Part shown: positions 11,397 through 57,899 of the stretch, piece by piece
Layout of the letters: each line of letters opens with the position of its first letter
Numbering within the stretch: the stretch's first letter is position 1
Assembly (NCBI GenBank): GCA_014871385.1
Contig: CM026426.1
Location: 104,319,281-104,383,280 of the forward strand
DNA: 64,000 nucleotides
Direction: 5' to 3'
From: Ceratodon purpureus
Lineage: Eukaryota; Streptophyta; Bryopsida; Pseudoditrichales; Ditrichaceae
Notes under the pieces: generated by a model
What the model was told of the DNA's origin: nothing
The model's input: only the letters and a program-made list of their open reading frames with translations
The model's database searches: none
Position numbers and translations under genes: made by a program

Positions 11397-12008
11397 GGTA
11401 TACCCGCCCGGGAACCCGAATCGGGTATCAAACTAGGGTTTAGTAGGTTATCTAAGAAGGTATCGTCATTGTCTCCGAGGGATTTAAAAGTTCAGCAGGT
11501 TTCAGAGCCCGACCTTTTCTCCCCACGATCCCTTACAGCGCAACTAGAAGAAGAGCTCTCCCGTCGTCTTCGTACTCCCGGAATGTGCACGATGGTAGTG
11601 CTGATCGTATTCGATCTACAGGGGTGGGCGTCTCTTCTGACGGTTGGTATTGCAATCCTGGCGATGTCGATTGCATGTATCTGCATTGTACGCGCGGTGT
11701 GTGTACTTCCACACCCAGTGACTAGGTGTTGTGGAGCTCAGTCCACACGTCATGGGTGTGTATGTATCCCAGTGTCACGGAGGGGGAGATGTGGTACAGA
11801 CCGCATCCGTCGAAGACGGTCTGAAGATGTAACCCCGACTGTTCCTGTTCTGCGACGGCCGTCCGGAAACGCCCCTTCCGAACCCAACGAAATACCATAC
11901 GTTGGAGAGGGATGCGATTCTGACGATCCTGCATTTATATGGAACGAGTACTTCAGCGGAGTCGGTGACGAAGAGTTCGACAATCTCTCTTGTTATAGTG
12001 CTAAGTAG
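11397..12008 (+). CDS. Membrane-protein frame after the transposase UAG
   Basis: The transposase frame continues past its TAG (11394-11396) with no other stop until TAG/TAA-type closure at 12008. It may therefore be a readthrough extension of 203 residues, or a separate gene starting at the first ATG (11583, 141 aa). From that Met there is a strongly hydrophobic stretch (VVLIVF, then SLLTVGIAILAMSIACICIV) predicting one or two membrane spans. A Cys- and Arg-rich segment and an acidic tail follow. The tail ends DEEFDNLSCYSAK, matching the pattern at the end of the CACTA membrane protein at 57159-57899. I know no family for it. The hydrophobic part plus acidic, aromatic tail suggests a membrane-anchored adaptor, but no function can be assigned. 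Confidence 0.6.
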   Translation, partial: GIPAREPESGIKLGFSRLSKKVSSLSPRDLKVQQVSEPDLFSPRSLTAQLEEELSRRLRTPGMCTMVVLIVFDLQGWASLLTVGIAILAMSIACICIVRAVCVLPHPVTRCCGAQSTRHGCVCIPVSRRGRCGTDRIRRRRSEDVTPTVPVLRRPSGNAPSEPNEIPYVGEGCDSDDPAFIWNEYFSGVGDEEFDNLSCYSAK

Positions 12009-12604
12009 TCCGTAGTCGGTCAGATAGATGTGTACTAGTCCGGCCTCTGTCTATTTGGCTTCAGACCAATGTTTGGCTTCGCTTGTACTAAACAAAAAAA
12101 AATTTAATATTATGGTCAACCTACATAGTATTCAGCAGTATCCAACATTGTTTTCCATGCTTCCTTTCGCTGTTTTACATTGTGACACTACCGAACAGCG
12201 ACCAGTAAATGTAATGAGCAACCTTCTAACTATTTAAAAGGGTTCCAAAGTAACCTCTACATTTACTGATTGCAAAGGTCTACTCCATATTTACAATCTA
12301 CCGTATGCATCCTAATATAAAATCAGAAATTCAAAGCATTCTAATTCTTGCAATTAGAAGTCACGGTTGGAACAAGGATTCCATGTCCCACTATTAAGCA
12401 AAGCAATTAAGAATACGACAACGACATAGACAGTGGTGGCAATTTTGAAAAACAGATACGCTAACACATATAGGACGTTTATACAGCCCGTAACTGAATG
12501 AGAGGAATGGCGCAGTGACAGTAATTTACATTTAGAAATACCCATTTCTGAAGAACATTGTTTTAAGTTTAAAGCAGTTTTTTCGACTTGAATACTAAAC
12601 GGCC
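12009..12604. other. Gene-free centre between convergent MULE genes
   Basis: AT-richer DNA that separates the 3' end of the plus-strand genes from the 3' end of the ULP1 gene. It presumably holds both polyadenylation regions. Apart from one GTGACACT octamer (12182) I see no structure. Confidence 0.6.
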
Positions 12605-15600
12605 CTACTTCTTCTGAGGGACACAGAACGGAGCCCTGAACCTAGTGTCACGGCGATCACTGTCCATTTCGCGCGCTAGAAGGGACAGAATTTCCATATT
12701 CGTATCCTTCGGTGTGAATGGGACCATCAGAGCATTCTTCATCAACTGCTCCCTCTTGTTGGAACGCCACGCTCGCAACTGCAGACGATAAAATCACCTG
12801 AATCAATATTCATATTAAACGGAGTAGTCTTCCATCCAACTGAAAGTACATGAACTTTAAACAGCATGCAGTGAAAATTTAAACATAGACTCTCTTACCT
12901 TCAAGTATAGAATGGTGTTCCGTATAGTGTGATGACCACACTCGTAGTTCCCCTTCTGCTTTAGAACCTCCAACCTCACGAGGGGGACCCTATATGGCTC
13001 TACCCCTCTCAAGGTCTGCCAAGCATGGGATATGGCATTCACGAACTCCGCATCCCTACCGTCAGGCTGATGGTACGGTTTATCGGCCGAGTCCAGGTGG
13101 ACAACGTTCCCATACTGGAACACGAGCAGGGACCAATGATCGTGAGCGACCCAGGGCACCAAAATTTCCTTGACCTGATGCACCATAACAGGGCTAGGTG
13201 GCTGGAGAAATGCACTGGCCCACTTAAGCACCGACGTCTGGTCTTGCATGGAACGTTTGTATGTTGAACTAACACGTGATAGCGCAAAGAGTATTTCGTG
13301 GCGGTTAGATGGAGGGTATTGGAAATATAGACGGGACATGACAAAGTCGACAATGTCATTACCAAGCCTGGTCCGCATACGTCGTAGGTCTCTTATCGCC
13401 TGGAACTTCACCTCGAGCTCCTTGTTCTTCTCCGAAAAGAAAACAACATCAACCGCTCCGTCCCGCCGCCCTTGTCTCCCCGGCAGAGTCTGCATGAAGT
13501 CCTCAACGTGTAAGTAAGTATACGCCTGAGACAGTGTCATGAGAGCAACATCTTCAAGTCGGAATATGGCACAATCCGGCCATGGCGCTGCTGCCATGAC
13601 ACGCGCAAGTTCTTTTCCCTCAACAACGTCAGCCTCCGGAATTGCTGACTTACTTTTCGTATCCGATCGCTGAGACAAATTCACGAGCTCGGCCGCAGTG
13701 TCTTCCAGCTCCTCCTCTTCATCAAACGTGGACATGAGATTCCTACATGTAGAATCCTTCTGGACTGTTGGCAGTCGAGGGTCGCTGTTACCGGGGATTA
13801 TAGAGACACCTTTATAAGGTGTTCGAACATTCCCATCTGGATTTCCTTTCACCCATTGCTGGAAACTGGGATCTTGCGAAAATGTCGTCTCCTCGACAAC
13901 CATGTCTTCGTCCCCATGAGCGGTGTTATGGAACTGGCTCAAGGTAATCAAAGGGGTCTGAACAGGTGGTGAACCGGGATCCTCTAGAATCTGACGGATT
14001 TCAGGGAAAACCGTCGGAACTGTGTTACAGTCGTTCAGGTTAGCAGGCGGATCGATGGAGTCTTGCAATGTCTCAGCATTCCCAGAATTCGCCTCTGTGG
14101 AATAATTGGAGTCGGCCCCTTTTTCCAATGTGGGAACTTCCGCCTCAGCTCCCCTTGTGAAGGGGACATTGACAGTGTCCTTCACATCCGTGTTCCCAGA
14201 GGAAGGTTGTGTCGAGAAGTGGGCGGATGTAGTAGTTCCACCACCAGGGCTGTCGAGGCCCGGTCTCTTCAAGTCCTCTACGGCACTGCTGTCACTACGT
14301 CCATAATTTTCCGCGTGTGCGGGAGACCCGTGACCATCACTGTGACACTGTTTGCTTGTGCTGAAGAGAGTCGGTAGGAAAGGTCCTTCGGCGACTATGA
14401 TACCGTCTTCGCGGTCAGTTTTGATGGAGTACAGAGGCTTCGCGGTTGTGTTAGTAGACCCCGGGTCGGATACTATGGGACTGGACGGGATACCCGATGT
14501 GGGTTCGGCATTCTTTTGGTCGACAGCGTCATTGTACTCTGGCAGGGCCATTTCACCCGCAGTTATTCCGTTCCCCTGATGGTCGACGTCCTCGCAACGT
14601 GGGACACAATCTGCGTTCAGCGGAGCGAGATCAGAGATAGGGACCCGGATGGTGATGTCAGGAAGGGTCTCCGAAACCTCTGTCTCTAATTGTGGCAACA
14701 CCTGTGTATCAATCCTTGTATCCTCTGTTACCTGAATGCCAACTTCATGCCCACCGTCCAATGCTCTTTTAACGTCAGTCGCCGCCAGTGCTAGAACCCC
14801 CTCCCCCTCCATCTCCCGTGAACATTGTCCCTCATAGGGGGGTTCCGTGACACTGAACTCCCTTGAACAAACAGACCAGTAAGCCATGTCCTCCCTCTTT
14901 AGTGTATCGTATACCTCGCATACTGCCTCTTGAATTTTCAGCTTCAAGGCAGCGACTCCCGGATTCCAATTCGGGGTGTGTAGAGTTGCCACCCAACCAA
15001 CGTCATGTTCTTCTCTTGTGCGCAGCACCGAATCCCATATCTTCACGTGCTCCTTCCATTGGTCGGGACATGTCGTCGTCCAGATACGGTTGAATTCCAT
15101 TGCGTGGCACACCGCCAGGTCATGTAGCGCCCGCAGTCTGACCACTCGGACCCACTGAAGTAGACTCTCGATTAGGTCTCCTCCTTCTCCACTGTTAATT
15201 TTCTCCACATCACTTATAACATGTGACCGCAGCGTCTCACCGAGGCCGAATCGGAGTCCCGAGTAAGTGTAGGACCCTTCTGCCGTGAATATGGATAATG
15301 CGCGCTGGATATTTAAGACTACTTTACACTCCCTTCTGATAATAGACTCTGTTAATCCAAAGAAAGGGCAGGAAAGGAGTCTGAATTGACCATGCACACA
15401 TCTAAAAAGGACCCTGAATACGTATAGTAGAGGTACCGGTGGTGCCGCCTCAACTCGGTTTTCGCACAGTAGCCTCCTGACTTCTTTCGCCTCAGCCGCT
15501 GTAACATGTACATCATTTAAAAATCAGTACTACAGATGAAGAAGAGGAGCTCGCAAATTCCTCACTTTGAAGTCATTAAAGAAGTGTTTCAGACATAGAG

Positions 15601-18554
15601 CGATATCGACTCAGGATAAACGAATTGAGGTAAGGTTTTCTACCGTCGTGGCGCCAAGGCATTCCGGGCATTTGTCGGAGTACGTTTTCTGTACCGGTGA
15701 TTATGCGCCACAAGGGGGACCAGTCCCATAGGACCTCTTCGTATAGCCTGCCATTGACCTCCCTAAACTTCATCGTAGCAGTAGCCTCTCTCCTCATTTC
15801 AGCGTCTCGCATTTCCACTCGATAGGTATTCAAGGCGGTCTCATACGATTTGAAGTCCAGACTCCACTGAACATACTTTCCGAGAGCTTGCAAGTCCTCG
15901 TACGGAACCCCTTCCTCGACGCTTTGGACTAGTGCGTCCAGAGCGAGTGTCACGGATTGGACAACCGTCTGATGCAATGGCGACTTCTTATCCCCCTAGT
16001 AAAGAATATAATAATTAGTTAGGAAACGGAGCAAGACACACCGGCAAAGGAAGTCAGTCCTGCATAAGCCAGGTTTTTCTAACTTGAATTCCACAGCACT
16101 AACCTTTTTCCGACTCCACCAGTACGGTAAATGCATTAGCTTGTCCTTGAACTCGGGTCTTGCTACATCTTCGTTCCACCGACGGACGAACTCGTCTCCA
16201 GTGACACTGTCCCACGTCCAAGGCAGTGTCACGTCTTGAGCAATCTCTCGCAAATAATACAATCCGGGCATGTCCGGTTTGTCGGGGCAGACTGGAGGCG
16301 GTGGTTGACGTAGAACGGAGTCGGCTTCTCTGCACTGCTTCGCCACGTGCTCTCTTTCGATGTCCAGTAGAAGATCCCTACGTGCAGTGAAGCCCTCCCT
16401 CGCTCCGGGTTGGAATGTGAATGGCCCGGGACACCCATTTCCGGCCGCCCAATAGTATAGAATCTCCGTGTTGGAGTCGAAATCAGTATCCCACACATGA
16501 ATAGAATGAACTGACTCCTGAACTGAGTGTCTTGGACTACGTGGGTGCAGACGTGATGGACTTTCCATGATGGGGAGATCATCTACTCCATCCATGTCAC
16601 TGTGACACTGCAGACAATCACCTAGGACGTTACGAGACTTCTGCTTCATAATATCTATACCCTCAGTATCTACAGGAACAGAATCTGTAAAATCTATGTT
16701 AGCCTGAATACTTTCCTCACAGGAGTTCTTTTCAATGTTCGAAATCCCATAGGTTCTAAATAAATCTCCCGTCCCCTCAGCCCCACTCCTAATTCGCACC
16801 CTAAACCTCTCTCGTAAGGTGGCAATAGCCTGTAGCCTCTCACTTACCTCTGCAGTCGGTGTAGGAACACCCTTCGGTTTCTTCACAGCCTTTCCCTTCT
16901 TGCGGTTTGTTTTATCTCCCTTCCCTGCTTCTGCTTTCCGCTTCAGCGAGTCCCTGATACTGGGCCCCCTCAAGTGCAACTGTAAATCGTCGTCTGGGGA
17001 CATCTCCGCCTGGACGTTAGTGTCACAGGCGAATGTAACAGCTTTACTATGAACCACGCTCCGTGGCAACACCGCGAGATTATCCATCACTGTCGACTCG
17101 GTCACGGTAGTGACATTTAGTTCCTCCTCTTTATCCGCAGCCTCGTCAACGTGTCCCGTGGCATTTTTCGCATTTCGAAATCCTAGCAAAACAGGATCGT
17201 CCTCCACTGTCTCACTGTCATGCCGTACCTCCGAATCCACGTCCCTTTCAGCGATGGCAGCACCCTCGTCTGCATCGAGCCGTTCTGGAGAATCTCGTGG
17301 TCCAGGTGTCGCTCGTTTCCGGGCTGCTTTGGTCGGGGATTTTCTTACAGTTTTCCCACCACGACCCCCCTTCTCCTCTCCCTTCGCCGCCGGAGCCTTC
17401 CTGAAAAACAGATCCTGAGGTGGAGAAATCGTTCCGTCTGTATGGAGCTTATTCACCCGGTCCTGAGCACCTCCTGGATGAACAGTATCATCAGCGGCCA
17501 CGATTGTCTGATTTCCACTCTCCCCTCCATCTTCTGCCCCAACTGGTTTCGTCTTCAATGCCTCCGTCTCCTTGCACATCACCTCCACGCGTTTACCCTC
17601 CCCACGCTTGAAGTCTGGATATGGAAGCAGTAATGCTATTGCACCATCCGGGTACCTCGCAGCAGCGCACCCCTCCACATATCGATGCCGGTTAAGCATC
17701 ATCTTGTTGGAGAAATCATCTCTTCCGCAATGTATACAGACGAAGAACTTCCTCGTCCCGCATGGTCGATACGATCCCTTGCACATTGTCGCGTACTCCT
17801 TCTGCAATTCGTGAACCCTCCGAAGACTCGGGTACCGGACGTTGTAGCTATGGCCGTAGATAACCACCCTGAGTGTCACTGGCTCTTCTGCCATATCCTC
17901 CGCCTTATACACCCCTGTAGCTTCTCCGCACTTAGGACACCCAGCTGCAAAAAAACATATAAACCTAAATCTATTCACCACCCCTATAGGAATCCCGCAC
18001 CCGCTTCTGCAATGGACAAAGGAATAGAACCAATCCGCCTCAGAGCTTTCGTCGTGGTCCCTGCAAATGTTGAGGTTCACACGAAAGGAATTAAATTGAA
18101 ATGCCCGTGACAGTGCTCAGGCGCAGGCATACTTTTTGCGGAAATAAATTAACAGGCAGTAGATGGTGACATACCTCTGGATGCAAACCCTAAATCGAGA
18201 AGGAACAGAATTTCAATCTCCGCCCTAAACCGAAATGCGGAGACAATGTGCAGGAAAAATCATTACAATTAACCTAATCAGCTTCCGCACCTTGGTATGC
18301 TCCAAAACGCGAAGTCCGTGTCCGACGTCGTCTCCACGGAGCTCCTGGTCGTGACGCAGACATCAGTAAGATGGAAGGTGACGGACTCCATTTCTATAAT
18401 AGACGTTGCGATTCGCTGGAAACACAAAGACAGATTCGGGGAGGGTGTGAAACTTACCTCCATCGTGACGGTAGGCGCAAAGAAGGTCGCGCTCCAGCTT
18501 GAAGGCGCTGCTGATCCGCTTCTCTGAAGATGTCATCTCCACAGCGTAGCACAT
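12605..18554 (-). CDS. ULP1-type (C48) cysteine protease fusion, six exons
   Basis: My exon model, from the start: 18554-18458, 18393-18291, 18060-16104, 15995-15644, 15498-12899 and 12778-12605. All borders are GT-AG and phases agree, giving 1760 residues and TAG. The N-terminal third has Cys-rich zinc-finger-like segments (GCPKCGEATG and FVCIHCGRDDF...H...C). A long low-complexity acidic and Ser/Thr/Pro-rich middle follows. The C-terminus is a C48 domain with catalytic-type His1624 (DHWSLLVF), Asp1639 (VVHLDSADK) and Cys1690 (YECGHHTIRN); the spacing fits ULP1 SUMO proteases. Such proteases remove SUMO or process SUMO precursors. Capture of ULP1 domains by MULEs and CACTA elements is known, with unclear benefit. 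The gene is transcribed toward the transposase from the right TIR. The start ATG is the least certain part; a further 5' exon is possible. Confidence 0.88.
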
Positions 18555-18804
18555 AATGATCCCGGATTGATGAGGGGTTCCACCTGGAACTGAAGCGACT
18601 CGATAGAACACCAAAACGGCGAGAGTTAATTTCGACTAGACCCTACAACCTACGGAGATCAATGCTACAACCCCAGGACTTTCAATGCAATTCAAACCCA
18701 TCATCACGCACATATCCTTCACCAACAAAAACTCCACGAAACACTGGAAAACCCTAGTTCTCCAACCATGTACCGAGAGAGACGATGACGTGGCATGACG
18801 TCAC

Positions 18805-19053
18805 ATTTTTTCGGGCACGGTCAGTGTTGCGTCGGGCAATGTCACAAATGGTCAGTGTTTTGTGTCACGGATAGCGTCACGGGAAGAAGGCGATCGCGAG
18901 TAGTGTCACGCAGGTGATAAATTACGCGAGGCGATGTTACCGCGGGGGTCGCGATTGGGGTGAAACCGCGTGTCCGACGTGGCCAGCGACGGGGACCGCC
19001 GAGGCGCGGACCCACAAACCCTACCCTTTCCTACATGGGAAATAGCGTTCTCC
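18805..19053 (-). repeat. MULE right terminal inverted repeat
   Basis: 249-bp inverted partner of 7074-7322 (248 of 249 identical). It lies just upstream of the minus-strand ULP1 gene and so is its likely promoter region. It contains the octamer at 18902-18909. Confidence 0.95.
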
Positions 19054-20066
19054 AACTGAATGTCCTCTGAATCTACAAATAGCACAAATCCGAACAGGAC
19101 TTACCTCAAGAATTCCTCGCGATAACTGAACGTTTAGGTTTAAACGTGTCTTTCTCTTACGACTTACTACCGAGCATGTCGTTGTTGACTCATTCCGGTC
19201 TCGGGAGCACATCTGTGACACATGTCTCTGTAATGGATAATTTAAATCCGTTTCTGAAATGTATTATTACTATTATAAAATATGACACTACGACAAGTAG
19301 CAGTCCGTATTTTGCTAATAAATTTGAAAATGAGCCCTGTGATCCAATCCTGGACCCGGGTTACATTAATTCTAAGCTAGAGTACATTATGGTGCTAGTT
19401 ACGCCTGCATTTCCGGAACCTATAACCAGCAGACTATTCTATAATATAAATCATTGATGTATGGAGATATCTAAAAACACCTTGCTCGATCCCAACAAGA
19501 GTATTTCCTTCCGCATTTCTGATGCACTGTGAATATCCTGTTGTAGCACCGTTCTAAAGATCTTGTTTTGGAGCATGGTAGTGCAGCTACAAACAACTTC
19601 AAATCTCACCTCTTAAGTCATCGAGACGTCATTCTTGAACTCCAACTCATCTGCCAGATTTTGCTGTCGAGATGATAGTAGTCCCCTGTACCAGAGAACA
19701 TTTGATCCTAGCGCATCGCTTAAAGTCGCTTGATCGTCATCTTCGACTAGTATCATTAAGGGGAGATTAACATAGACCTTCTCAACATTCACACGAGCGT
19801 ATTGCGGTAGAATCATTCGACCATGAAATGTTGCTTGTCCTCCTAGACTCATCACCGTGCCACTCGCCACACGAACTGATGGGTCCAACGTATCCGCAAA
19901 CCACACTTGGTCGCCTGTTTTAATCTACAACATTACAAGAGAACAGTCTTAGATCAGAGAATAGTTACATCAACAGCCGTAAGCGACCAAAAACGTCTCT
20001 CCAAACTATGACTGAGTCTACATAATCTCTTAAGTCATAGCAAACAATTACAACCTTCATGCGTAC

Positions 20067-20120
20067 CTCTTCCTTCTTTTCTTCGAAGTTTTCTGGTTCA
20101 TTGCTAGTTCCCTTTTTTTC
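20067..20120 (-). CDS. Small internal exon of the CACTA ORF1 relic
   Basis: An 18-codon, Glu/Lys-rich block with a TGCAG acceptor at its upstream border and a GTACGC donor at its downstream border. It is phase 0 at both ends, like the neighbouring exon 20547-20594 (16 codons, NVGTLNAADILEVLQ). Too short to find by ORF length alone. Confidence 0.45.
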
Positions 20121-20546
20121 CTGCATCGTAAGTCCCACTGATCGAAAGTACCTCTATATAGCATAACTACTTTTAACACATACAAGCACTGTGGACCTTG
20201 TACTACTAAGGACTAAAGATGTTTTGTATGTCGACGCATAGTTGTTGTTCCTTCAGTGCTTATTGTTTTGGGACTCTGTACTTCTACATGTCCTACTCAA
20301 GTGCATCGGAAGTTCGGTACGAGTTATCCCCTAACAAAGCACTTAGCTGATATTCCTTTTCATGGCTAGCTGTATAAAATAGAATTAAGAGAGCAATTTC
20401 TACTTTGTATTATACTTGATGAGTCTATAGCTTAAAACCTACCTGGAAGACATGTTTGTTATCATAATCAAATGATTTCATTTGTTCCTTTCATAAGTAT
20501 AGTATATAAGTCCAAAACAAATCGGAGTGTTCCGTAGGGAACGTAC

Positions 20547-20594
20547 CTGCAACACTTCCAAAATATCCGCAGCGTTCAGTGTACCAACGTTTCT
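20547..20594 (-). CDS. Small internal exon of the CACTA ORF1 relic
   Basis: A 16-codon block between TTTTGCAG and GTACG, phase 0 at both ends and on the same strand as the other ORF1 exons. Confidence 0.45.
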
Positions 20595-22733: not shown

Positions 22734-23150
22734 CAGTCTAACCTTGATAATATCACACCATCCGTTTCACCATAAAGTGTGATATAAACAAGGTGTGACA
22801 TATTTGATAATGTCACATTTTGAAGATTTGTGCATAATGTGATATTATCAAGGTTAGAGTATAGCCAAATACATACAATCTGTTCATTCATACAATTATC
22901 CATCCATATAATCTGTCCATCCATAAACTCCATTCATCCATACAATCTGTCCATCCAACCATCACATACATCCATCCGTATTTGATATTATCACATTTAC
23001 ACTACGGATTTTGGAAATATATAGTGACATTATCAAGGGTGACAGGGATAATAACGAGGGAGTTTTACACTAGGAAAATCGGTTTCAAACTTTTAGGTGA
23101 CAATATCAAGGTGTTCTATTAACAAGGGTGACATTATCAAGGTTAGACTG
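22734..23150. mobile_element. Pogo/Tc1-mariner-like TIR element, TA duplication
   Basis: Ends CAGTCTAACCTTGATAAT and its inverted partner ATTATCAAGGTTAGACTG are flanked by TA on both sides. The 417-bp interior has more copies of the ATTATCAAGG word and a short imperfect repeat of CATCCATACAATCTGTC type. There is no transposase, so it is non-autonomous. It sits inside the Transposase_24 coding exon of the ORF1 relic. Confidence 0.85.
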
Positions 23151-24552
23151 TACCTTTCGCCGTGTCTCGGACATTTTCTCAGACTTTGCTTTATATATAG
23201 GGGATTCCCAATATTTCTTCATATTCTCCCATTCTTTCTCTGAAAAATTTGATGGAGCTTTCAAATTGCTCCATGTAATCTCTTCACTCTTTCACAATCT
23301 CTACGGAGCCACGTCTTGATCATCTTGTCAAAGGCCACCAACTGTGACACATCGTGCTCCAGGAATTCAAACTTTGCAGATAGAGCGTCTCTCAACTTTG
23401 CCCGGGAACTTTCATTCTGTTCCTCGTATTTGATGATGCTCATATCCAACATCCAAGGTGTTAAATCTCATACATACTCTTGCCATTTTAAATGGCCTTT
23501 ACATCCACTATCAAAGGTACTAAAGGGACGCATCTGCACAACGTAAGGTTTTAGACCGGCGTTCACCCTTCTGTTTGCCTCTTCATCGGCTTCCCTTTTA
23601 TTTGCCCTCCCGATCCTCTTCTTCATTGATTCTTCCTTTATGGAAGAGGATCTGGATGGACAACCTTCTCTGTCCCTATCTCTTGATTAACTCCAATCCC
23701 TGCGTTGGAATTCCCTAAGCTCACTCCAGACACACCTTGCCAGTTCGAATGAAATGGAACCTGAGACATGCCACCTAACACATCAACCACATCCGCACTG
23801 CTTTGGTTTTGTGGAAAAGGTACCCACGTCCAATGAACGGGACCCTGCATCGGAATGGTTGTAGGACACGGAAACACGTGACCTCCATGAGGAACTCGAC
23901 AATCCTGTTCAGCATTTTTGTGTGCCAGTGTACTTCCTCGGCTGCATCGATAAGTGATGGGTGGGTCTTCATCAAGTTTCCTTGAAAGCGAATTTTTATT
24001 ATGATTGTTGTTGATGGATTGGGGCGTAGGACTACCAATATGCCTCCGCGGATTCTATGAATTAGAATCACTCGCATCGGATTCTGTATATCATTAAAGA
24101 ATTAGGTCATACAAAGTGTAATTCCCCATTCATTCCCACTGTAATTGCCCCAACAGAGTGTGTGATCAAACTCATGTGCATTTATTAAATCTAGCATCAC
24201 ATGTTACGCGAGCAACCCATTACAGTAGAGAATAAACATCATCCTGAGCAGTAACCTATTGCAATGAAATCGGCTACCAAAATAACAAAGGACGGTTTCC
24301 ACATGCGGACACGTAAAACCCTAAACAATGCGGAAGAACCAAGGGTCAGTGCTTACCTCGACGGTCGCATGCGCGTCTTTCACCGCTGCCTCCATCAGAC
24401 CCATCTTCGTGGTCTTCCGTCGTAGCAGCCGCCGCTTTCAAAGGTCCAACCCCGTCGCCTCCACATTGTACCCTCCCGCTTCTACGAGGCGGAAAATCTG
24501 TGCTTGCAATGCTCTTCCGTTTGCGGTAATTTTTGCGACCACGAATTGACAC

Positions 24553-27109: not shown

Positions 27110-28128
27110 CTTATGCCCCCTTCAGACAGGGAGGTACGAAACACCGCTGGAAAACCCTGTGCCACTGTGGTCATCCAAATAACCTGAAGATGTTCACACT
27201 TTGAAGTGACGTAAATGGATATTCTGGAAAGGAGAGTTCTGTACATGGAGTGGGCTGGACGAGACCCTTCCCACCATCGTTGATACAGACCTCCTGAGTA
27301 TACATGATGATCAAAATCCGATTTCTGTGATCATTGGATTTACTGTGTACTGAAGTGACATCCACGTTCTTCGCTCCCGGGCAGTGTCGGGCAGCTGGAG
27401 ACAATGTCGGGCAGCTGAATAATTTTTTTTTGAACCGTAGCTCTCCCTCCCCCCCCTCCTCTTCCTCTTCATTCGCAACGACTCCTTCTTCTCTCTCCGC
27501 CTCGTTGTTGCGGCCACCGATTGTTGCATGCGCTCGGGTTTCGCAGTAGTTTCAGTATTGCAGAATTGTTGAATTGCTCCCAGCGGTACGGTGTACTGTG
27601 TGCATCGGTTGACTCAACGGGCTTGTCGAGCGCGGCATTGGCAGAACTCAATTCCCCTGCCGTGGTCATATCAATTTTGGATTGTGTGCGGAGTCATGCT
27701 CGGGGCTCGCGACGGTGAATTCGTTGATTTCCGGGTGATCACAGGAGAGGTACGATTCAATTACTGCTGATGTTTGAATGCTGCGTTCGTTTGAGTTCGT
27801 CATTCGTTTTGAGCTCTCTAATTATGTGGATTCTAACATGTGTATCCGATCTCAATGCAGATTAGGAACTTTCCATTGTCACTCGGAGTCTTGGAAACCC
27901 TCCGCGGCGTGCGTCATCGGTAAGCACTTGGCCGCCAAACCAAGGCGCAGCCAGGTACGCTTACTGTGTCCGCTACGTCCGTGTAAGTCTTTCCATTTTC
28001 TCGTCATCGTCCAGCCGATTCGGTACTTGGTTATTAGTCCCCCGGGTTGATTGCCCTTAGAATCCAGTGGCCCTAGGTCTTCGATTAGGGTTCGGTAATC
28101 TGTAGGAGTTCATCCCTCTGGCTCCGCC

Positions 28129-29463
28129 ATGGACCCGCGTCTAGACCCCCGTAATGTCGCCTTCTTCCTTCCGTCGCTTGTTCTTCTTCTTCAGAACGTG
28201 GTCGACACCATGTTCCGGCCAGGGGAGGACATACCTCCTAATGAAGGTGACGGAGCTGTTCATGTGGCTCAAGTGCATGAGACCCTCGTCAATATGAATT
28301 CCATAGTAGCATCTGTTTTGCACGATTTTAGAGTTGCCCATGCGGTGACATTGCTCGAGCAGGAGCTAGGATGGTGGGTGCTTCCACGCTCCACATTCTG
28401 GTTCTCGCGCTTCGTTCTTCAGGAATATGACGATAACCGTTGGCTAGAAAATTTTAGGATGACCAAAGCTTCCGTGTTTAGTCTCACCAATCTGTTGCGA
28501 CCGCATATAGAGAAGCAGAATACGATGTACAGAATGGCTATCCCTCCCATCGTTAGAGTCGCCTGTACCTTATTCAAATTGTGCCAAGGATCAAACCTTT
28601 TGCTATGCTCGGAGTTTTTTGCTATCGGTGTGAGTACAGCCTCTGGTATTATCAGAGATGTCGTGAAAGCGATAAATGACACCCTGAGACATGAGATATC
28701 CTGGCCTACTGGGAATCGCCTCCACTTAAACATGGCTCAATTTCGTGAGTTCTCGGGGTTACCAGGGATAGTCGGGGCAATAGATGGAACTCACTTCCAT
28801 CTACGCAAACCTAACCATTGCCCCGAGGACTACTTTTACTTCAAAAGTGGCGGGTACACCATGGCTTGCCAAGCAGTTGTGGATCGTGACCGAAAATTCA
28901 TAGACATATCAGTTGGTATGCCGGGCTCTCCTAACGATGCACGTCAATTGAGACGGTCCATGCTTTATCAAAAGGCTACCACTACTAATCTGTTCAATCC
29001 AGCGGATTCAATTGAGGGATTTGTGCCCTATTTGGTAGGGGACAAGGGCTATCCGATTCTACCCTGGTTGATCACACCATACCGTGAGATGCCCAATGGT
29101 CGCCGTTCTGTTCAGGAGACGCTATTCAACCGCAAGCTTTCCCGAGCCAGAAGTGTGGTTGAAAATTCTTTTGGAATTCTAAAACAAACTTTTAGAGAGT
29201 TGCACAGTACCTTGGATCTGCATGTGACACTACTGCCCGATGTGGTGGTTACCTGTTGCATACTGCATAATCTACTGCTCGGCCAGTCTTCGGAGGAAGT
29301 GGACAGGTTACTGGAGATGTTGCAGCGGGAGGGGATGGCGCCTATCATTGATGATGATGCTGTACCTGAAGAGCTTCCAGAGGACGGGGCACCAAGGAAT
29401 GAGCTAGATGGAGAGGATAAAAGGACTAGCCTCGCCGCATTCCTTGTTCAGGACAGAGTCTGA
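28129..29463 (+). CDS. PIF/Harbinger transposase (DDE_Tnp_4), 444 aa
   Basis: Nuclease and strand-transfer enzyme of the Harbinger element, expected to act in the nucleus with the Myb-like ORF1 partner. The ATG lies in a CGCCATGG context and the frame is uninterrupted. Catalytic motifs are visible: VGAIDGTHF (Asp219), YLVGDKGYP (Asp305) and ARSVVENSFG (Glu345), with the usual RCIIHNLL-like helix near the end (CCILHNLLL). The N-terminal half contains the helical region ahead of the DDE core, and the C-terminal tail is acidic. Length fits the family (roughly 400-450). I see no intron and no break, so it may be functional. Confidence 0.95.
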   Translation: MDPRLDPRNVAFFLPSLVLLLQNVVDTMFRPGEDIPPNEGDGAVHVAQVHETLVNMNSIVASVLHDFRVAHAVTLLEQELGWWVLPRSTFWFSRFVLQEYDDNRWLENFRMTKASVFSLTNLLRPHIEKQNTMYRMAIPPIVRVACTLFKLCQGSNLLLCSEFFAIGVSTASGIIRDVVKAINDTLRHEISWPTGNRLHLNMAQFREFSGLPGIVGAIDGTHFHLRKPNHCPEDYFYFKSGGYTMACQAVVDRDRKFIDISVGMPGSPNDARQLRRSMLYQKATTTNLFNPADSIEGFVPYLVGDKGYPILPWLITPYREMPNGRRSVQETLFNRKLSRARSVVENSFGILKQTFRELHSTLDLHVTLLPDVVVTCCILHNLLLGQSSEEVDRLLEMLQREGMAPIIDDDAVPEELPEDGAPRNELDGEDKRTSLAAFLVQDRV

Positions 29464-29961
29464 ACTGGGAAGTCGGCAACAACTGGGAGGGCGGGTGGGA
29501 AATTCTAATCGACCGGGACTACGACCATCAGGTAATGCAATCAAAACACTCATTGTCATAATTCAAATCAGTTTCCCTGTCATGCAGTTTTATTAGCTGA
29601 AAGCATAACACATAAGGTCGGGTAGCTAGAGTAGTAGACTGTGTCGTTTTTTTTTTTGAGCCTCAAAGGCCGAGACCAGTACTACACTCTGTTCCAGATA
29701 TGTTCTAACATAGTTCTCATCTGTGCTACCTAGGAGGAGGTCGGAGACGATGGTTGGGAGGAAGTACAGACGACGTGAAGGGCAGGTAACTAGACCAACT
29801 CTACGACATCGATATCACTGAATTGTACAGTCAGTGATGTGTAGCAGATAGTGGAGTTTCTTCTGATGAATTGCTTTTGGGTGTTGCAGATGGAGGAGGA
29901 GCGCTGCGGTTGCAGTTGGAGTGGGAGCGCAACTTCGGCGGTTAGATATGGAGGGGGAGCG

Positions 29962-47308: not shown

Positions 47309-47342
<34 letters not shown>
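47309..47342. repeat. (AT)n microsatellite
   Basis: A run of about 16 AT units, 80 bp outside the CACTA terminus. Confidence 0.95.
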
Positions 47343-47346
<4 letters not shown>

Positions 47347-48500: not shown

Positions 48501-48909
48501 TATTGGAGGAAGGTGGAAAGTCTCGTTGGAACAAAAGCACACTCTCTTACACAAAAAGGACCATCGACATGGCAGACTCAGGTTTAATGAAAACGATCCG
48601 TATACTTAGATTAACATTCAAGGCTGCTAAGCACAATGCATACACATGAATAATAACCTAGCTCCCACTGCTACTAGGCACTAGCTACGCACAGAATCTT
48701 GGAGCACAATACTCGCATACAAATCCTGTCAGGTAAGAGAGAGCTACTACGGTGCCGTTCTTGGAATTAGTACAAGCCAGTGGCGGCGATTTGCGGGGGA
48801 AGTAGAATCATGATGAGAGATTCAAATGGTCGGCCGATGCCAGCTGGTATGCATCCAGCTGGTTGTACTGTTGGTCTCTTGCGTACTGCTGAGGTGGAGG
48901 ATATCAACA
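48501..48909 (-). repeat. copia 3' LTR
   Basis: 409 bp, identical to 53718-54126. On the minus strand it begins TGTTGATATCC and ends CCTCCAATA, so it has a TG...TA rather than the usual TG...CA border. Confidence 0.96.
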
Positions 48910-48943
48910 CTCCCACTCGCGAGAGACCAACAGTGAGCGTGTC

Positions 48944-51900
48944 TTAGCCGCATGAAACGTTGGTGAGGCCGAGAATGCTTGTGAGTCGCTGGAATCGATC
49001 TCGAGGGAGCGGCTTCGTAAGAATGTCTGCTGCGTTATCGACAGTTGATACGTAGACAAGTGTGAGATGCCCCTGCTGGAAGTGGTCGCGTATAATATGG
49101 TACTTGACGTCCACATGCTTCGTGCGGCGGTGAAACTCCGGGTTGCGTACGAGTCGTATCGCAGACTGATTGTCACTACGTAAGGTTGTAGGTTGAATCT
49201 GCGGGTACCCGAGGTCGCTTAATAACTGGCGCATCCCCAATATCTCCTGTGATGCCAAGTGCGCCGCAATATATTCTGCCTCCGTAGTGGATGCCGCCGT
49301 GCATCCCTATTTGCGGCTGCCCCACGCAACGGGGCCACCATTCAGGACGATAACAAATCTCGAGCGTGAACTGCGGTCATCGGTGTCACCCGCGTAATCT
49401 GCATCACAAAATGCCTGCATCGCATTTGGTTGCCCTGTTGCTGCGTAGGTGAGGCGTAGGTCGGGGTTGCCGCGTAGATACTTGAGCACGCGCTTGACAC
49501 CTGCGATATGACTGTTGCGGGGATTGCGAGAAAACTTGGAGAGATGACTTGTAGCGTAGGTGATGTCGGGGCGTGAGCCTTGGCTTGCAAAATGCAAGCT
49601 GCCAATAATCTCAGAATAGGGAAACGAGGGATCCGTACCTTTGTCGATGGAGGAGGCGAGGTCGAGAGGGGCATGTGGATCAGCAGGTACAGAGAGAGGT
49701 GCGGAGTCGAGAAATCCATACTGAAGCAGCTTCCTGAGGATGTAACGAGATTGGTCGAGTTGAAGAGTGCGTTCAGCTCGGTTGCGAGTGATGTGTAAAC
49801 CCACATAAACCTCTGGATTGCCGGTTGTGATATTGAAGATTCCGCGCATGGAGTCAGTCACGGTATCAATGCGATGTTGATCGCTGCATGCGATGATGCC
49901 ATCATCAACGAATAGAGCCAATATAAGTGTTGGCCCGTTGAGACAAATGTAAACGCAGGGGTCTGCGGGGCTTGGAGTAAGGCAGTGCTGGACTAAAAAG
50001 TCATGGAAGCGCTGATTCCACACGCGAGAAGCCTGCTTTAGTCCGTATAGGGCCTTATGTAATTTGCAGACCAGATGGGGTGCAGCTGAATCAACAAACC
50101 CTTTCGGCTGTGCCATGTAGATTTCGTCACAAATCTCCCCATAGAGGAAGGCGGTTTCAACGTCGAACTGGACTAGTTGCATATCCTCCGCGGCAGCCAC
50201 AGAGAGTATGGTACGAATTGAGTCGAACTTCACGACAGGTGAAAATGTCTCAGAATAATCGACACCCTCCCTCTGTGAGAACCCTTTCGCTACCAGACGA
50301 GCTTTAAATCTGCTTACGGTACCATCTGCGGCCAGTTTTACACGATAAACCCACTTATTTTGGATCGCTTTTCTGCCTGCAGGGAGCTCACTTAGCGTCC
50401 ATGTACCGTTGCTGAGGAGGGAGCCATACTCCTGCGCCATGGCTTGTTTTCACTGATCTGACTCGTCCATCTTCAGGGCCTCTTGATATGTCTGTGGTTC
50501 GAGAGGAGACTCTATGGTGACAGGTCCAGAATGTGCCATTCCTGCAAAGGGAACAGGTTGATCTAAGCAAACCCATTCTCCGTAACGATTCGGTGGCTTG
50601 CGGCTGCTTTGGGGAAGTGCATGCGGAGGGCTGCTGGCACGCGGTGTGTCACTTGCTTCTTCAACATGACCGTCAAGGGATAGGTCCACGATGAGCGTGC
50701 CAATGCTTGCGTCAGGATCCACCATGCTGCCCGCTGTGTGTGGTGCCGCTGATATGGGCGGAGGTAAAGCAGCATCTGTAGCATCTGGTTGGATTGCCGG
50801 CTCGGTGGCTGGTAGAAGCGAGAGGGTTGTAGGAACCTCTGTTTCCGCATAAGTAATGTCCTCCCACTGTGCTAATGTCGCATCAAGAGAGTCACGGGGT
50901 CCACCAAATATTTCTTCAATTGGCTCTGCCTCGGTGGTGGAAGAGGGTTCTGATGTCCCGCTGAAGGTGTTCACTGGTGTTGACGCTGGGTCGCTCTGGT
51001 CGCCAGGTTCTACAGGTGTGAGATCCACCTCGTCAGCAGATGTGGAGTCTTGGGCAGGTGCCGGGTGTTGTGCTACGGGTGCTGCATGCTGGGGCGCTCC
51101 TCCTGCAATTAGAGCCGATTGAGGAACTCCCACTGCGACTTGTTGTGGAACTCCCACTGCGATGGGCGGTGGAAGGTGAACTGGCGGTGCTGCCAGGGGA
51201 ATAGCTGCAGTTGCTTGTGGTGTAGCTGAACCGACTGAAAAGAGCGGGAGGGGTGTCTTTGTGCGCACAGGAGCCTGACTTGCTGTCTCGCTGTATACAC
51301 CGCGGAGAACACTACTTTCGTCAAAAAGAACGTCTCTGGACTCGACGATTTTCTGTGAGCTATTAACCCATATGCGATATGCCTTACTATACTTGCTGTA
51401 TCCCATTAGAATGCCCCGAGTGCTCTTGGGTGCCAGCTTGGTGCGCAACTCGCTCGGAATGAAGATAAAGGCATCAGCACCGAAGACTCGGATGTGTGAA
51501 ACGCAGGGGCGTACGCCATGCCAACGCTCAAATGGGGTTTCGCCATCAAGCATGCGACTACCGCTACGGTTAAGACAATAGACGGCAGTGTGCAATGCTT
51601 CGCCCCAAAACCTCGTATGAACATTCGCAGTGTAGATCATACTACGGACTGCTTCCATAAGTGTACGGTTGTCCCGTTCCGCTACCCCATTTTGCTCTGG
51701 CGTGTAAGGCGTCGTCAACTCTTGAGCAATGCCGCTGTGCTGCAAGAACGCCCTGAAAGCTGTACTGGTGTACTCGGTGCCTCGATCTGTGCGAAGGCAG
51801 CTTACATGGAAATTGGTCTCACGAGCTAGCTGGTTCACGAAGTCCTTGAAGTGCCGGAGTGCCTCGGATTTCTTGGCCATACATTGGATTACGCAAAACC

Positions 51901-53536
51901 CAGTTGCGTCATCTTTAAATAAGATAAAGTATCGAGCCTCGTTTACTGTAGCCTGATTCATAGGGCCGCAGATATCGCTGTGAATGAGAGCACCTGCGGT
52001 GGGTGCTTTCAAGCGTTCATCGTTGTGGGGAAAGCTACATCGCTGCATCTTGCCATAAGCACAACCTGTGCAGAAAGGAGGGGGGCCTGGTCGAGAAAGA
52101 ATACTGAGACCTTCGACAGTATTGCGGGATGACATCTTGGTGAGCATGTCGTGATGGACATGGGCAAGACGTTTATGCCAGACGTCTATGGTCTGGAGAC
52201 TATCCTTCTTTCTTGATACACCGAAACTACCAACGTGTAGGGCGGCTATGGCGCTTGGTAACAGTGGGGTGATGAGCAGTTTGTAAAGCTTGCTGGTCAA
52301 GACTCCGCTCATAACTATCTCTCCCTCCTGTGTGACCAGACGACATGAATGTTTAGAAGTAATGGTGTCAACATTCTTCTGAGCCGCTCTCTCGGATGAG
52401 AATAAGCTGGTACCGAGGCGAGGAACCAGGAGTACGTCAGTAAGCGTGGCGAAGTCTTCGCGATCAGTAAGGTGCACCTGGACATTGACATCTCCAATAC
52501 CGATAACCTCAAGGAGAATTCCTCCGACACCCTGAACTGTTCTATTCTCGTGTGAAATGTCTGTGTATTTACAAAAGAATTCTTTCGTATTGGTCATATG
52601 ATCGGTACAGCCGCTATCAACGTACCAAGAAGAGTGCTCTGCGACACCACTAGTCGTCATGTATGCGCGATGCATGGGCTGTTTCGGCACTGAGTTCGAC
52701 GGCTGTGGGATCTCATTAGGCTGTGGGAGCAGGGTTGTAGGATCTTGCGGACCGGTTGGGCATTCTTTTGCCCAGTGGCCTAACTGGCCGCATTTCCAAC
52801 ATGTAGTAACCTTCTTTCGCTCATTTATCTGAAGTCTACGCTCCTGGCGCTGCTCGTATGTGAGCTGCGGGCGATTGAGGGACGGAAGGGAGGACTGGTT
52901 TGAATTGCTATATGTTGTTGCGTATGCAACAGCAATCTTCTCCTCTTCCTTTTCCTCGTTCTTTAAGCGGGCTTCATGACGAAGCAACCTGACTGTGAGG
53001 TTGTTGAGCGTGCGAGACTGATCTTCGACATTATCCCAGGCTGATAGAAAAGAGCTGTACTGAGCAGAGGGGAGGTTTGCAAGAATTTTCGCAATGAGAC
53101 TAGCATCTGAGATTGAGTTGTCCCCCATATTAATGAGGGAGCTCTTGATGACTTCCAGCTTGCCTAGAAAGGTAGCGATAGTGTCTGAACTGTCCATTTT
53201 GCACTCATAAAAGCGCTGTTGAACATGGTGAACGGACTCATGAGCGGACTGATCGTGGAGAAGTTTAAGTTTGTCCCAAATAGCTTTGGAAGTATCGCAG
53301 TTGATAAGGATCTCAAGAATGGACTCGGCTACTGCTTTGCAAAGCAAAGAAATGCACTGGTTGTCTTTTTTGACCCACTCTGCCTGCGCTACAGTGTCTG
53401 TGGGTTTCGGGACTGACCCATCTACGATACCCATGAGGTCTTGTCCGAGTAGAATGGCTCTGAGTTGGAACTTCCAAAGGTGAAAGTTCTGGCCATTGTA
53501 CAGTTTGACATTTCGGAGCTCTGCGTTTGCATCCAT
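48944..53536 (-). pseudogene. copia gag-pol polyprotein, one frame with two stops
   Basis: A single frame of 1531 codons from the ATG at 53536. Parts in order: gag with a UBN2/copia-type capsid region (KLYNGQNFHLWKF), CCHC knuckle (CWKCGQLGHWAKEC), aspartic protease (WYVDSGCTDHM), integrase zinc motif (WHKRLAHVHH...CTGCAYGK) and catalytic core (HSDICGP, RTDRGTEY, PEQNGVAERDN), reverse transcriptase (FDVETAFLYGEI, ALFVDDGIIA) and RNase H (SDNQSAIRL). In-frame TGA at 50450-50452 falls where copia proteins have Trp ahead of the AM-x2-E motif. In-frame TAG at about 49304-49306 falls where they have Gln after WGSRK. Both fit G-to-A or C-to-T changes. Otherwise intact. An upstream non-ATG extension is open to 53593 but MDANAELRN is the likely start. 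Confidence 0.93.
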
Positions 53537-53705
53537 GATACGGTGAGCAGGGTTCTGATACTGAGAAAGAAAAGATTGCTGTCGACGCAGCAAAAAGAAG
53601 ACACGTGAAGCTTTCTACGGCTGCTGTAGGCACAGCAGTTTACTAAAGAGCACTTTCTTTATCCACAACACTTAAGAAAACTAGGTCGCTAAAAAGAAGC
53701 GAGCA

Positions 53706-53717
53706 GGGCCCATAACC
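53706..53717 (-). other. Primer binding site for a half initiator tRNA-Met
   Basis: Directly adjoining the 5' LTR, the minus strand reads GGTTATGGGCCC. This is the complement of the plant initiator tRNA-Met anticodon stem-loop (GGGCCCAUAACC) and not of the tRNA 3' end (TGGTATCAGAGC). Copia of Drosophila and Ty5 of yeast prime in this way, with a tRNA cleaved in the anticodon loop. Confidence 0.85.
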
Positions 53718-54126
53718 TATTGGAGGAAGGTGGAAAGTCTCGTTGGAACAAAAGCACACTCTCTTACACAAAAAGGACCATCGACATGGCAGACTCAGGT
53801 TTAATGAAAACGATCCGTATACTTAGATTAACATTCAAGGCTGCTAAGCACAATGCATACACATGAATAATAACCTAGCTCCCACTGCTACTAGGCACTA
53901 GCTACGCACAGAATCTTGGAGCACAATACTCGCATACAAATCCTGTCAGGTAAGAGAGAGCTACTACGGTGCCGTTCTTGGAATTAGTACAAGCCAGTGG
54001 CGGCGATTTGCGGGGGAAGTAGAATCATGATGAGAGATTCAAATGGTCGGCCGATGCCAGCTGGTATGCATCCAGCTGGTTGTACTGTTGGTCTCTTGCG
54101 TACTGCTGAGGTGGAGGATATCAACA
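53718..54126 (-). repeat. copia 5' LTR
   Basis: 409 bp, identical to 48501-48909; expected to carry the promoter for the minus-strand transcript. Confidence 0.96.
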
Positions 54127-56859
54127 ACACTCTAGCGTGTTTCTGTGGTCCTCTGGGCTTGGGTGCATCACCCTAACCGATGGCTTGAATACGCGGAGAA
54201 CATGAATCCATTGTGCTCCGTTTGGACATGGAGGACCTTCCTTCAGGATCTTTGAATGGGGTCCAGGCCCAGTTTTCCCTGCGGCAACAACTACCTCTCC
54301 GTGCTCAGGATGTAGTATCCACACTGATTTCTTGGCTGCAACAAGTGTGTCTTTCTCTTTCGCGGGTTGAAACTCTCGTGGACTTTTAGAGCATGCAGTG
54401 GATTTCCTGGCTCGGACTCCTCTTGTAACAATACAATGTTCCGATAATAGTGGACCTGTAGGTAGAGTTATGGTCACTCGTTGCTCGACGTCAGGCACGC
54501 TGGTGTGGATCGCTGGGACGGTGTCGACCAGAGCGTGATGGCCTGTGATCGTGCCCCGGCTGCTCACTGGCGATGTCGGTTGTGGAGAGGAGCTGGAATT
54601 CGATAATTCAGCTTGACTGCATAGTACTGGCGATAATAGGACCGTATCACCACTGCATGGCGATCGTGAATTAGGATAAGCGGGCTGCTGACGTTCTGTC
54701 TCCCTGGTCAAGACTGCAATGCGAGTGAGACCATCAGCGAACTTGGATATCTCTACACTCTGGTGAACCGTTAGTGTATATAGTGGACTTCCAAAAAAAT
54801 AATTAAATATCACATTGTACAACTCAAGACGGTAATGGAAGGAGTATGATACCTGAGCTCTGTAGTGTGCTATCCGGATGCGTGTGTTCAACTGTTCCGT
54901 TAATCGGGGGGACGGTGTCAACACGGAAATTTGGAGACGGCGTGTCTGCGATCATGTCCACGGCATGGGCTTCGGAAAGTATCTCGACTGGGCGTCGTGA
55001 GTCCGATGTTACACCATGTTTTAGGAGTTGGAGCAACTCAGTCAAGTTCGTCTGAAGAAAGTCCATGCGCGACTCCATCCCTTCCTTCCACGCATCGGTT
55101 AACTTCTCGGGGGTAGTGGATTGGTTGCAGCTCCTGGTCATCTGAGGAAATAGCATAGTTTATCAACATCACGATGTCTCGACAGGACATGAAGCAGGAA
55201 TATTATAACCATGGGTATTTAACAAGATGAACGGCTCATGTGCACCGGAATGGTCGTACCTGCTGCATGGATGTTGAATTTACCACTTCGGGTGAATGTG
55301 CCTGCGACGCCAATGTTTCTGTGGCTTCGTACTCGATGGGAGCATCCATGACCCAGTCGCTGCACATGGGTGTCCCATAGGGATTTGCATACTGCCAAGG
55401 CATACGAGGAGAAGTAGTCAAATGTAATTATTGAATCATCGGGCGCAGGAGCTACTACTGAGGACATAAGAGACGATGAAAGGCTGCTAATTTCCAAACG
55501 TATTGTGTATTACATATGCAGATTAAATGAACTAGGAAAAAAATAAGGAAGGATGAAAATCCTTGTGAACCTATACCTGCACCTGCGCGGATACTGGAGT
55601 GTGGAAATCCGCTGATGCTGACCCGCTTGGTCGGGATCGTGTAGGGGTTAGGTCGATGTCCTTTTCACTGCAGAATGACACATCCTTACCCACCTTAGAC
55701 CGAATCCCCTTCATGGTTTCACTTTTTGCCTTGCCTTCAGGACTCTCCCAGAATTGACGTAGTGTTGCGAATGCTTCGTTGGGACAATCTTCGTGCTGGC
55801 CACCTGAGGTATGAACGTAGTGCTTGTGCCACTTGTATCTGTCGTTGCTTAAAATCATAGATAGATAGGTGGACAAAATCTCTGGCTTAACAGGATAAAC
55901 AAATGAAAATCGAAGGCCTATTTCTCTTTGAATGGTTTTCAGCAACTATTTCCACTCTGTCGGTTCTTTCTTATACTCTCGTATGGAGCGATCCACTGTT
56001 AGTTCTACAATAGATCTAACTGCAGCCTGCCACTTCCCTTAATGTCCTATAATCTCGCCCTCAGGGTTTGTTAGTATGGGATACCTTAATTGGCGACCTT
56101 CAGCGTGTGCAATTCTTTGCATTTTGTAAGCCTCATTCTGCAAGCTCCGAGCCCTCCTTTTAGCCATCGCTTCACGTTCCTTTGTCGCAGGGCTCCTGGG
56201 CCGCCTTCCTGTCCGAGGGCCACTGACTAAAATTTCTGTGGAGGCGTGGAGGGTGTCTCTTATGCTTGGCGGAGCTCTCTGTGCAGGGCGGGGCATTAGG
56301 TTAGGCAGCCTGCGTTGAAACGGACTAGACTCGTGATTCCTTTCATTCGCACTGTGTTGCCGAATCGTAGGATCATAGCTGGGGGGTCTCTGAGGATCTG
56401 TAGACCAGCCGGGAGAAAGGGCACCTGCTCTTGGCATTTGCGGCAACCACTCCCTTAATGGAGCTTGTGACATCCCAATCTGCGAGAAGCAATTAAATGT
56501 AAATGTGTTATTCGATGGGCGTATCTGGTGAGAATCGACAATGCAGTAAGGGCCTGCATTCTGGGTACCAGTATAATACTGAAATAATAAATGAGGCAAA
56601 GGGTGCATAAACTAAGAGTACAGAAACCCTAATCCGTGGAATGTGTACCGCGTGAAGAAACGCAACCTACTATTCCGTTAAAGAGGTCCTCTGTATGGAA
56701 AAGGGGGAATGTAATTGGTGTTAAGGCACGATGACGGCATACCTGAGACGTAGTTGGGGCTGACGCAGGAAACATGGTGTTGCTTGGACTCCGAGCAGCC
56801 GATGCCATGACTGTCCTTCGCAGCAATTCAAAGCAGGGGATTTCATCATCAATTACCAT

Positions 56860-57158
56860 TCAATTCAATTCAAAGCATGATACTTCCATCTTTGGGTCAC
56901 AACTCCACGAAACTTTATTCTGGCGTCTGACCGCTTTGCCATCTTATTCCGAAAAAGAACTTCCCGTGGAGAGCTAAAATCCAAGGTCATATCAGGGTTA
57001 GTCGTGAATCGCCTTCCAAGTTTGTTATCGCGCCACACCTGTCATTTTGAATATCCGCCGAGCAATCCAGCCCCAAAGGAGTAATTCCTCTTAGGAAGAA
57101 ACCTCAAATCCCTAATAGCGCCATTCCATAGCAAGTGCTGTTGGAGCTTTCTCTAGGT
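56860..57158. promoter_or_regulatory. Divergent promoter region of ORF1 and the membrane-protein gene
   Basis: About 300 bp separate the ATG of ORF1 (minus, 56859) from the ATG of the membrane-protein gene (plus, 57159). The two genes probably share this region as a bidirectional promoter. I see no certain TATA box. Confidence 0.4.
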
Positions 57159-57899
57159 ATGGACGTCTCCTCGGTGCTAGATTATGAGACGGTACTCTGT
57201 GAAGAGAATGACGGGAATGATGGATGGTGGTTTCCAAACAATAGGAGCGACGGAGGAAGTCCCATACGGTGTAGAGAAGAGGTTGATCGACGGTCTGCTC
57301 TCGTGCTTGATGAGCAAATGCCGTCGATTGACTCTCACTCTTTGGACTTGTGTGAAGGTTTATCAGAAGGCGGTCAAAAGCTAAGTGACTCTGAGATAAA
57401 TCACATAGACGCCCTCTGTACGAGGTTCGGCTTAACTGTCGCGTTCAAACAGGAGTTGGTGAACGTTGTTTTCCTACTACTTGCTCTCCGCAAGATGCAG
57501 GTCGTGAGGGGTGACAACAGAGCTATAGAAAGGACTCCAGACTTTACAGTCTGGATTGTCCTTTGTATACTCTTCACTCTACTCGTGCTCTGTTTTTCAG
57601 CATGCAGGTTTCGAGAAATGGCAGTCTGGGCCCAATTTTGCAAGTCACCTCCAAGCATGCCTCCTGTTTGGGTGGGGAAGGTCTGCAAAACGGGAGAATC
57701 CCAGGAAACGATGGGCGTATTCGGTGTGAGCGTTCTTAGAAATACCGTGCATACTGGGGAAAATGGGAGTGCGTCTGATGTAGAACAGGAAGTTAAACAG
57801 ACTGTAGATGAAGGGGAAGCGCTGGGAGCATGGTCTCACTGGTACGATAACATGACCGACGAAGTCAAACACAACCTCGAATGCTGGTCCCCTAAGTAG
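57159..57899 (+). CDS. CACTA-borne single-pass membrane protein, 246 aa
   Basis: Uninterrupted single-exon frame from ATG (57159, context GGTATGGA); the frame is also open upstream to 57135 without an ATG. The N-terminal 125 residues are acidic and hydrophilic, with a shorter hydrophobic patch (residues 100-110, LVNVVFLLLAL). One clear membrane segment follows at 131-149 (VWIVLCILFTLLVLCFSAC) and then a tail of about 97 residues. The last residues, WSHWYDNMTDEVKHNLECWS and then PK, align without gaps with the end of the membrane-protein frame in the MULE (11397-12008). No known family comes to mind. A membrane-anchored accessory protein of the CACTA element is the most that can be said. It shares a divergent promoter with ORF1. 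Confidence 0.7.
   Translation: MDVSSVLDYETVLCEENDGNDGWWFPNNRSDGGSPIRCREEVDRRSALVLDEQMPSIDSHSLDLCEGLSEGGQKLSDSEINHIDALCTRFGLTVAFKQELVNVVFLLLALRKMQVVRGDNRAIERTPDFTVWIVLCILFTLLVLCFSACRFREMAVWAQFCKSPPSMPPVWVGKVCKTGESQETMGVFGVSVLRNTVHTGENGSASDVEQEVKQTVDEGEALGAWSHWYDNMTDEVKHNLECWSPK

Follow-up and report, generated by a model that had tools for sequence, protein, structure and literature searches.

Accessory proteins of DNA transposons act, to our knowledge, in the nucleus or on DNA. VANC of the Arabidopsis VANDAL MULEs binds DNA, counteracts silencing and is not known to have a membrane helix, and MURB, encoded by mudrB of maize MuDR, is not known as a membrane protein. Membrane segments do occur in the env-like ORFs of plant LTR elements. 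The rotifer Terminons have ORFs with transmembrane domains, according to sections of PMC6431247, and sections of PMC6446971 describe mudrB as an extra gene beside the MULE transposase that is apparently required for integration.

The window analysed here, a stretch of 64,000 nucleotides from the moss Ceratodon purpureus, contains two presumably unrelated elements, a MULE and a second element tentatively labelled CACTA. Each encodes a membrane protein whose C-terminus bears a similar signature (hereafter the tail proteins), a likeness that chance does not explain. The MULE tail gene resembles mudrB in being a second gene adjoining a MULE transposase, but its product has a membrane segment, which sets it apart from MURB as that protein is generally described. 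VANC offers the likeness of a MULE-encoded accessory protein acting on host control, and is distinguished from the tail protein on the same descriptive basis. Transposase_24 or TNPA-like of En/Spm (CACTA) is an accessory gene of the type presumed for the second element, with a weak, indirect match nearby, but it is a different gene of the element, and the tail protein lacks a Pfam match. The Terminon and env-like ORFs are, by description, similar to the tail proteins in being transposon-encoded with membrane segments, but they belong to retroelements. The sequence-only reading named no described membrane accessory protein shared by the two superfamilies, and the open-access literature surveyed here likewise yielded none from either MULE or CACTA elements.

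The MULE, of about 12 kb and apparently young, spans 7074–19053 between 252-bp terminal inverted repeats that are 99% complementary (7074–7325 and 18802–19053). The same 9-bp target site duplication, AACTGAATG, flanks it on the left (7065–7073) and right (19054–19062), within the 8–11 bp given for MULEs in sections of PMC6446971. Its plus strand encodes a transposase with introns, followed by the tail frame, and its minus strand carries two long frames (12857–15523 and 15996–18116). The last transposase exon (10241–11396, plus strand, its start placed by inspection) ends in TAG. PF10551 is the sole Pfam family in the exon at 9856–10086, below the cut-off there (E 0.0025, 18.6 versus 27.6 bits), and it was not matched in the frames at 7975–9777 and 10104–11393. 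It lies above the cut-off (7e-15) in P0034, a C. purpureus protein that matches the window at 77% over 133 aligned residues, and we count the domain as present from the exon and P0034 together. The repeats, the duplication and PF10551 bear out the MULE label of the sequence-only reading. P0034 is one of at least 34 relatives retrieved with the transposase and tail read through the stop, when the 7997 candidates sharing most words with that query were scored. The viral and prokaryote contigs, with 53 pattern stretches aligned in each set, yielded no transposase relative. On the minus strand, the frame at 12857–15523 ends in a DHW...HLDSAD...NYECGHH arrangement, which to us recalls the Ulp1/C48 proteases; a Pfam search of this frame gave no match.

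The second tail protein, of 246 residues from the first ATG, is encoded at 57159–57899 on the plus strand, with minus-strand frames around it at 54.1–56.9 kb and 60.1–62.5 kb and plus-strand frames at the window end. The CACTA label of this element is weakly supported by sequence, because it depends on a minus-strand frame (55574–55945) that resembles a decayed frame at 23109–23291 (42% over 31 residues; E 5e-5 and 1e-4 in two runs), itself a sub-threshold match. That decayed CACTA-like remnant, also on the minus strand, matches Pfam Transposase_24 (En/Spm, PF03004) below the cut-off (E 0.015, 15.9 versus 28.7 bits), and the frame at 55574–55945 has no Pfam match of its own. A plus-strand frame without a Pfam match (63514–63999) runs past the window end, beyond which the element seems to extend. 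By its look this frame may be the start of a CACTA transposase; neither it nor the frame at 63061–63348 matches a CACTA family (Transposase_21/TNPD). No pair of CACTA...TAGTG ends with a 3-bp duplication turned up in the window when 11 or more of the 14 end bases had to match.

Other insertions lie around the second element and elsewhere in the window. A minus-strand copia retrotransposon (48501–54126) adjoins the second element and probably inserted inside it; its identical 409-bp LTRs and 5-bp duplication ACACT indicate a recent insertion. A 1.5-kb foldback element (58475–59979) has 295-bp arms (98%) and an apparent 10–11 bp duplication, CGTTGACGTG(G), and a 33-bp tandem repeat (59520–59772) extends into its right arm. 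In the region at 28099–31410, a DDE_Tnp_4 transposase (1.1e-32) is accompanied by a minus-strand frame whose Myb_DNA-bind_4 match falls below the cut-off, a pair that we presume to be PIF/Harbinger-like.

Both tail frames, with their ends, lie where the sequence-only reading put them, at 11397–12008 after the MULE transposase and at 57159–57899. The signature occupies 11949–12008 in the MULE protein (YFSGVGDEEFDNLSCYSAK-stop) and 57840–57899 in the CACTA-side protein (WYDNMTDEVKHNLECWSPK-stop), both on the plus strand. Over the last 24 residues, FIWNEYFSGVGDEEFDNLSCYSAK and GAWSHWYDNMTDEVKHNLECWSPK, the two proteins share 8 identities and score 46 (BLOSUM62, ungapped). Set against 1726 further frames that end in a stop and span 24 residues or more, each tail scored 46 with its partner and 8 with the runner-up, and none of 200,000 residue shuffles reached 46. 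All pairs of frame ends taken together gave 39 of 1,490,401 at this score or above, the tail pair among them; duplicated DNA or AT/IY repeats account for the remaining 38, which are identical at 47 to 72 of 72 nucleotides, as against 31 of 72 in the tail pair. Between frame ends of the MULE and the second region (77,910 pairs) the best score is 46 and the next 25, and two control sets that used the window's middle part peaked at 37 (231,966 pairs) and 31 (209,085 pairs). A back-translated pattern, derived from the two window ends themselves, matches the window at the two tails only, and two matches arose in none of 100 shuffles. In BLASTP of 112 against 100 frames of the two elements, the tail pair (E 0.011) was outscored by two short pairs (8.2e-4 and 0.002), so local BLAST alone would be insufficient for the case.

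The likeness is confined to the end. Between the whole MULE and CACTA-side proteins 4 of 1000 shuffles align as well, and when the last 24 residues are removed 669 of 1000 do, in agreement with the initial impression that the remainder cannot be aligned. The sequence-only reading also proposed that the gene may have moved between the elements. At 31 of 72 nucleotides, the identity of the two tails equals the prediction from their proteins with random synonymous codons (30.7, sd 2.3), a comparison of little power over 24 codons; it gives no sign of recent transfer, and any transfer would not be recent.

A further case of the signature, which that reading had set as a test, occurs after another MULE transposase. 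P0019, a transposase relative of 493 residues on a short contig of 2064 bases, is frameshifted at the transposase end and continues into a tail-like protein with a matching start, membrane segment, CC and arginine stretch, and end. After the transposase it reads MFRAGFVFCFELPEWVVWLGVATLLYVMY..., CC, RRRRR, then YYGVMADEEFQNLSNFSAA, where the MULE protein reads MCTMVVLIVFDLQGWASLLTVGIAI..., CC, RRRR, then YFSGVGDEEFDNLSCYSAK. Beyond DDGQG, its residues correspond to the usual transposase ending read in a shifted frame: P0019's other frame recovers the ending of P0007 at 12 of 13 residues (shuffles at most 7) and that of P0003 at 10 of 13 (shuffles at most 8). The frameshift may be a sequencing error. 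P0019 was detected because its frame happens to be open, and it is uninformative on how often such tails occur.

Against the MULE protein, P0019 scores 55 over the last 24 residues and 69 over whole tails, the latter equalled by none of 1000 shuffles; without the last 24 residues the score is 37, reached by 91 of 1000. Its end scores only 22 over 24 residues against the CACTA-side end, so the common core is short. This core, [YW][FY]-x2-[VM]-x-DE-x3-NL-x2-[FYW]-S-[AP]-x-stop, fits all three sequences, from which it was itself drawn, and no fourth was found. Of the longer pattern first proposed, W-x2-[YW]-[FY]-x4-DE-x3-NL-x-C-[YW]-S-x-K, the core stands; at those places P0019 has neither the W (nine residues ahead of D), nor the C, nor the K at the end. 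A profile built from the three tails, with which the window was scanned, scores 79.0 and 73.3 at the known tails and 13.3 at the next best place, which places the match above background and leaves no decayed third tail in the window. Without its last 24 residues, the CACTA-side protein gives a local score of 54 with P0019, equalled by none of 1000 shuffles. This involves residues 296–337 of P0019, in the spacer, and residues 179–219 of the CACTA-side linker (33% over about 41 residues); the match does not line up with the register of the tails and may be chance.

P0019 also bears on the extent of the MULE tail protein. The sequence-only reading placed the frame correctly at 11397–12008, but the protein most likely starts at the ATG at 11583, giving 141 residues (11583–12008, plus strand) with an N-terminal membrane helix, a CC and arginine-rich stretch, and the C-terminal signature. 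The spacer between the transposase stop and this ATG (11397–11582, plus strand) is 186 nt long and open in the tail frame, and in P0019 it measures about 186 nt when the P0007 ending is taken as the length. If the MULE part were instead a C-terminal extension of the transposase, produced by read-through of the stop or by splicing it out, the two window frames would be expected in register across an open spacer, as they are, and splicing could join a good donor (CAG/GTAGAT at 11127) to acceptors in frame. Such an extension is nonetheless distinctly improbable: the stop position is kept in 12 of the 34 transposase relatives, which end exactly there (7 more end 3–6 residues later), the P0019 tail lies in a different frame from the usual transposase ending, and a methionine stands at the same place and spacing in both copies. 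As the frame relative to the transposase differs between the window copy and P0019, the MULE tail most likely belongs to a gene of its own, beginning at 11583.

A membrane segment precedes the tail in all three proteins. The two window frames rank first and second in peak hydropathy among the 80 window frames of at least 100 residues (2.79 for the CACTA-side protein, which has a second peak of 1.77, and 2.77 for the MULE protein; the third frame reaches 2.46), and the peak of P0019 is modest at 1.60. The observation of the sequence-only reading, two frames with a hydrophobic segment and like ends, is confirmed. In single-sequence structure models, the MULE protein forms a helix at residues 2–40 with block-mean pLDDT of 81–92 and low confidence after it. 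The CACTA-side membrane segment (about residues 129–149) falls in a helix at 129–158 of middling to low confidence, followed by a low-confidence helix near the end, and model confidence is low at both C-termini. Net charge in the 40 residues after the segment is +7, +12 and +2 in the three proteins, and ahead of it −1, −1 and 0 (15 residues, 14 in the first two). The positive charge after the segment suggests a cytosolic C-terminus, although this topology signal is weak in the CACTA-side protein.

Database searches placed neither protein in a known family. Alone, the CACTA-side protein retrieved only itself (1 match among 1626 candidates) and the MULE frame nothing among 140 candidates; these are weak negatives, since a match had to share exact 5-residue words and fall within a length window, and P0019, at 493 residues, was too long for both searches and missed. 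In the PDB by sequence, the MULE-side protein had no match and the CACTA-side protein 3 up to E 10, the best (0.064) an unrelated antibody chain. Pfam and NCBIfam gave no family for either protein at E up to 1, and at E up to 10 only DUF5325 for the MULE tail protein, below the cut-off (E 2.6). The lack of database relatives in the searches with either tail alone would suit two unrelated spurious frames that are alike by chance. So would the codon-usage scores, which are unremarkable (ranks 92 and 84 of 316), although part of the training set was faulty. We consider chance highly implausible, given a match far above the shuffle, pair and profile controls and, strongly, the third case in P0019.

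Two further candidates were set aside. The tail pattern occurs in three stretches of viral contigs, 39, 54 and (L001) 2 residues before the protein end, with hydropathy peaks of 1.36, 0.16 and 0.30; the first two are internal and L001 lacks the remaining motif, and we regard all three as unrelated. In the VAP-binding FFAT motif, an acidic tract contains an aromatic pair with D/S and then A at set positions behind it, and by inspection its A position holds G, V and N in the three ends.

By sequence, the family combines a strong hydrophobic segment, a positive stretch after it, a freely changing body and a kept C-terminus of 19–24 residues at the stop. Judged from these proteins, the body evolves fast and the end is conserved. 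Docking motifs usually take the form of a conserved terminal peptide on a loose linker, and a docking role would fit this pattern. Our best explanation, which we hold with about even confidence, is a family of transposon-encoded accessory membrane proteins of old shared origin, anchored in the membrane with a docking C-terminus in the cytosol. The gene would be a small separate one just downstream of the transposase in the MULE and a stand-alone one in the second element. Its product would sit in the membrane as a single-pass adaptor, with the C-terminus in the cytosol as a short docking peptide for one cytosolic partner. This partner is probably a host protein, because elements with presumably unrelated transposases carry the end. 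Docking might recruit or sequester the partner in the element's favour, for instance in silencing or trafficking, which is the least certain step. The likeness itself would most likely go back to an old common origin, either of the gene or of its final portion.

Two other histories must be weighed against this shared origin. Two unrelated transposon membrane proteins, whose genes have no common origin, may each have acquired a similar peptide that docks the same host partner, which would explain why the MULE and CACTA-side proteins align nowhere outside the last 24 residues, why no nucleotide trace of common DNA remains and why more than 100 additional residues precede the membrane segment on the CACTA side. 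Against such convergence, both proteins have the same order of membrane segment, linker and signature at the stop, and a peptide with 8 identities, fixed in their spacing across 24 residues, is long to have arisen by convergence; we regard this history as a minority possibility, to be taken seriously. It is improbable that both elements captured the last exon of one host membrane-protein gene in the manner of Pack-MULEs or Pack-CACTAs. MULEs do tend to take up host gene fragments, according to sections of PMC6446971 and PMC6431247, but neither protein had a host relative in the protein searches, of limited sensitivity, or in the PDB, and the equal gene spacing in two diverged MULEs is unlike a fresh capture.

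A broader reading, which we put forward tentatively, at somewhat less than even confidence, is that unrelated superfamilies of moss DNA transposons have in common a gene dedicated to a membrane adaptor, with a conserved cytosolic end to which a single host factor docks. No description of such a gene as a transposon accessory function was found in the open-access literature. If this is true, it would point to a membrane-located host pathway to which cut-and-paste elements need access, and the peptide at the terminus would serve as a direct bait for the partner.
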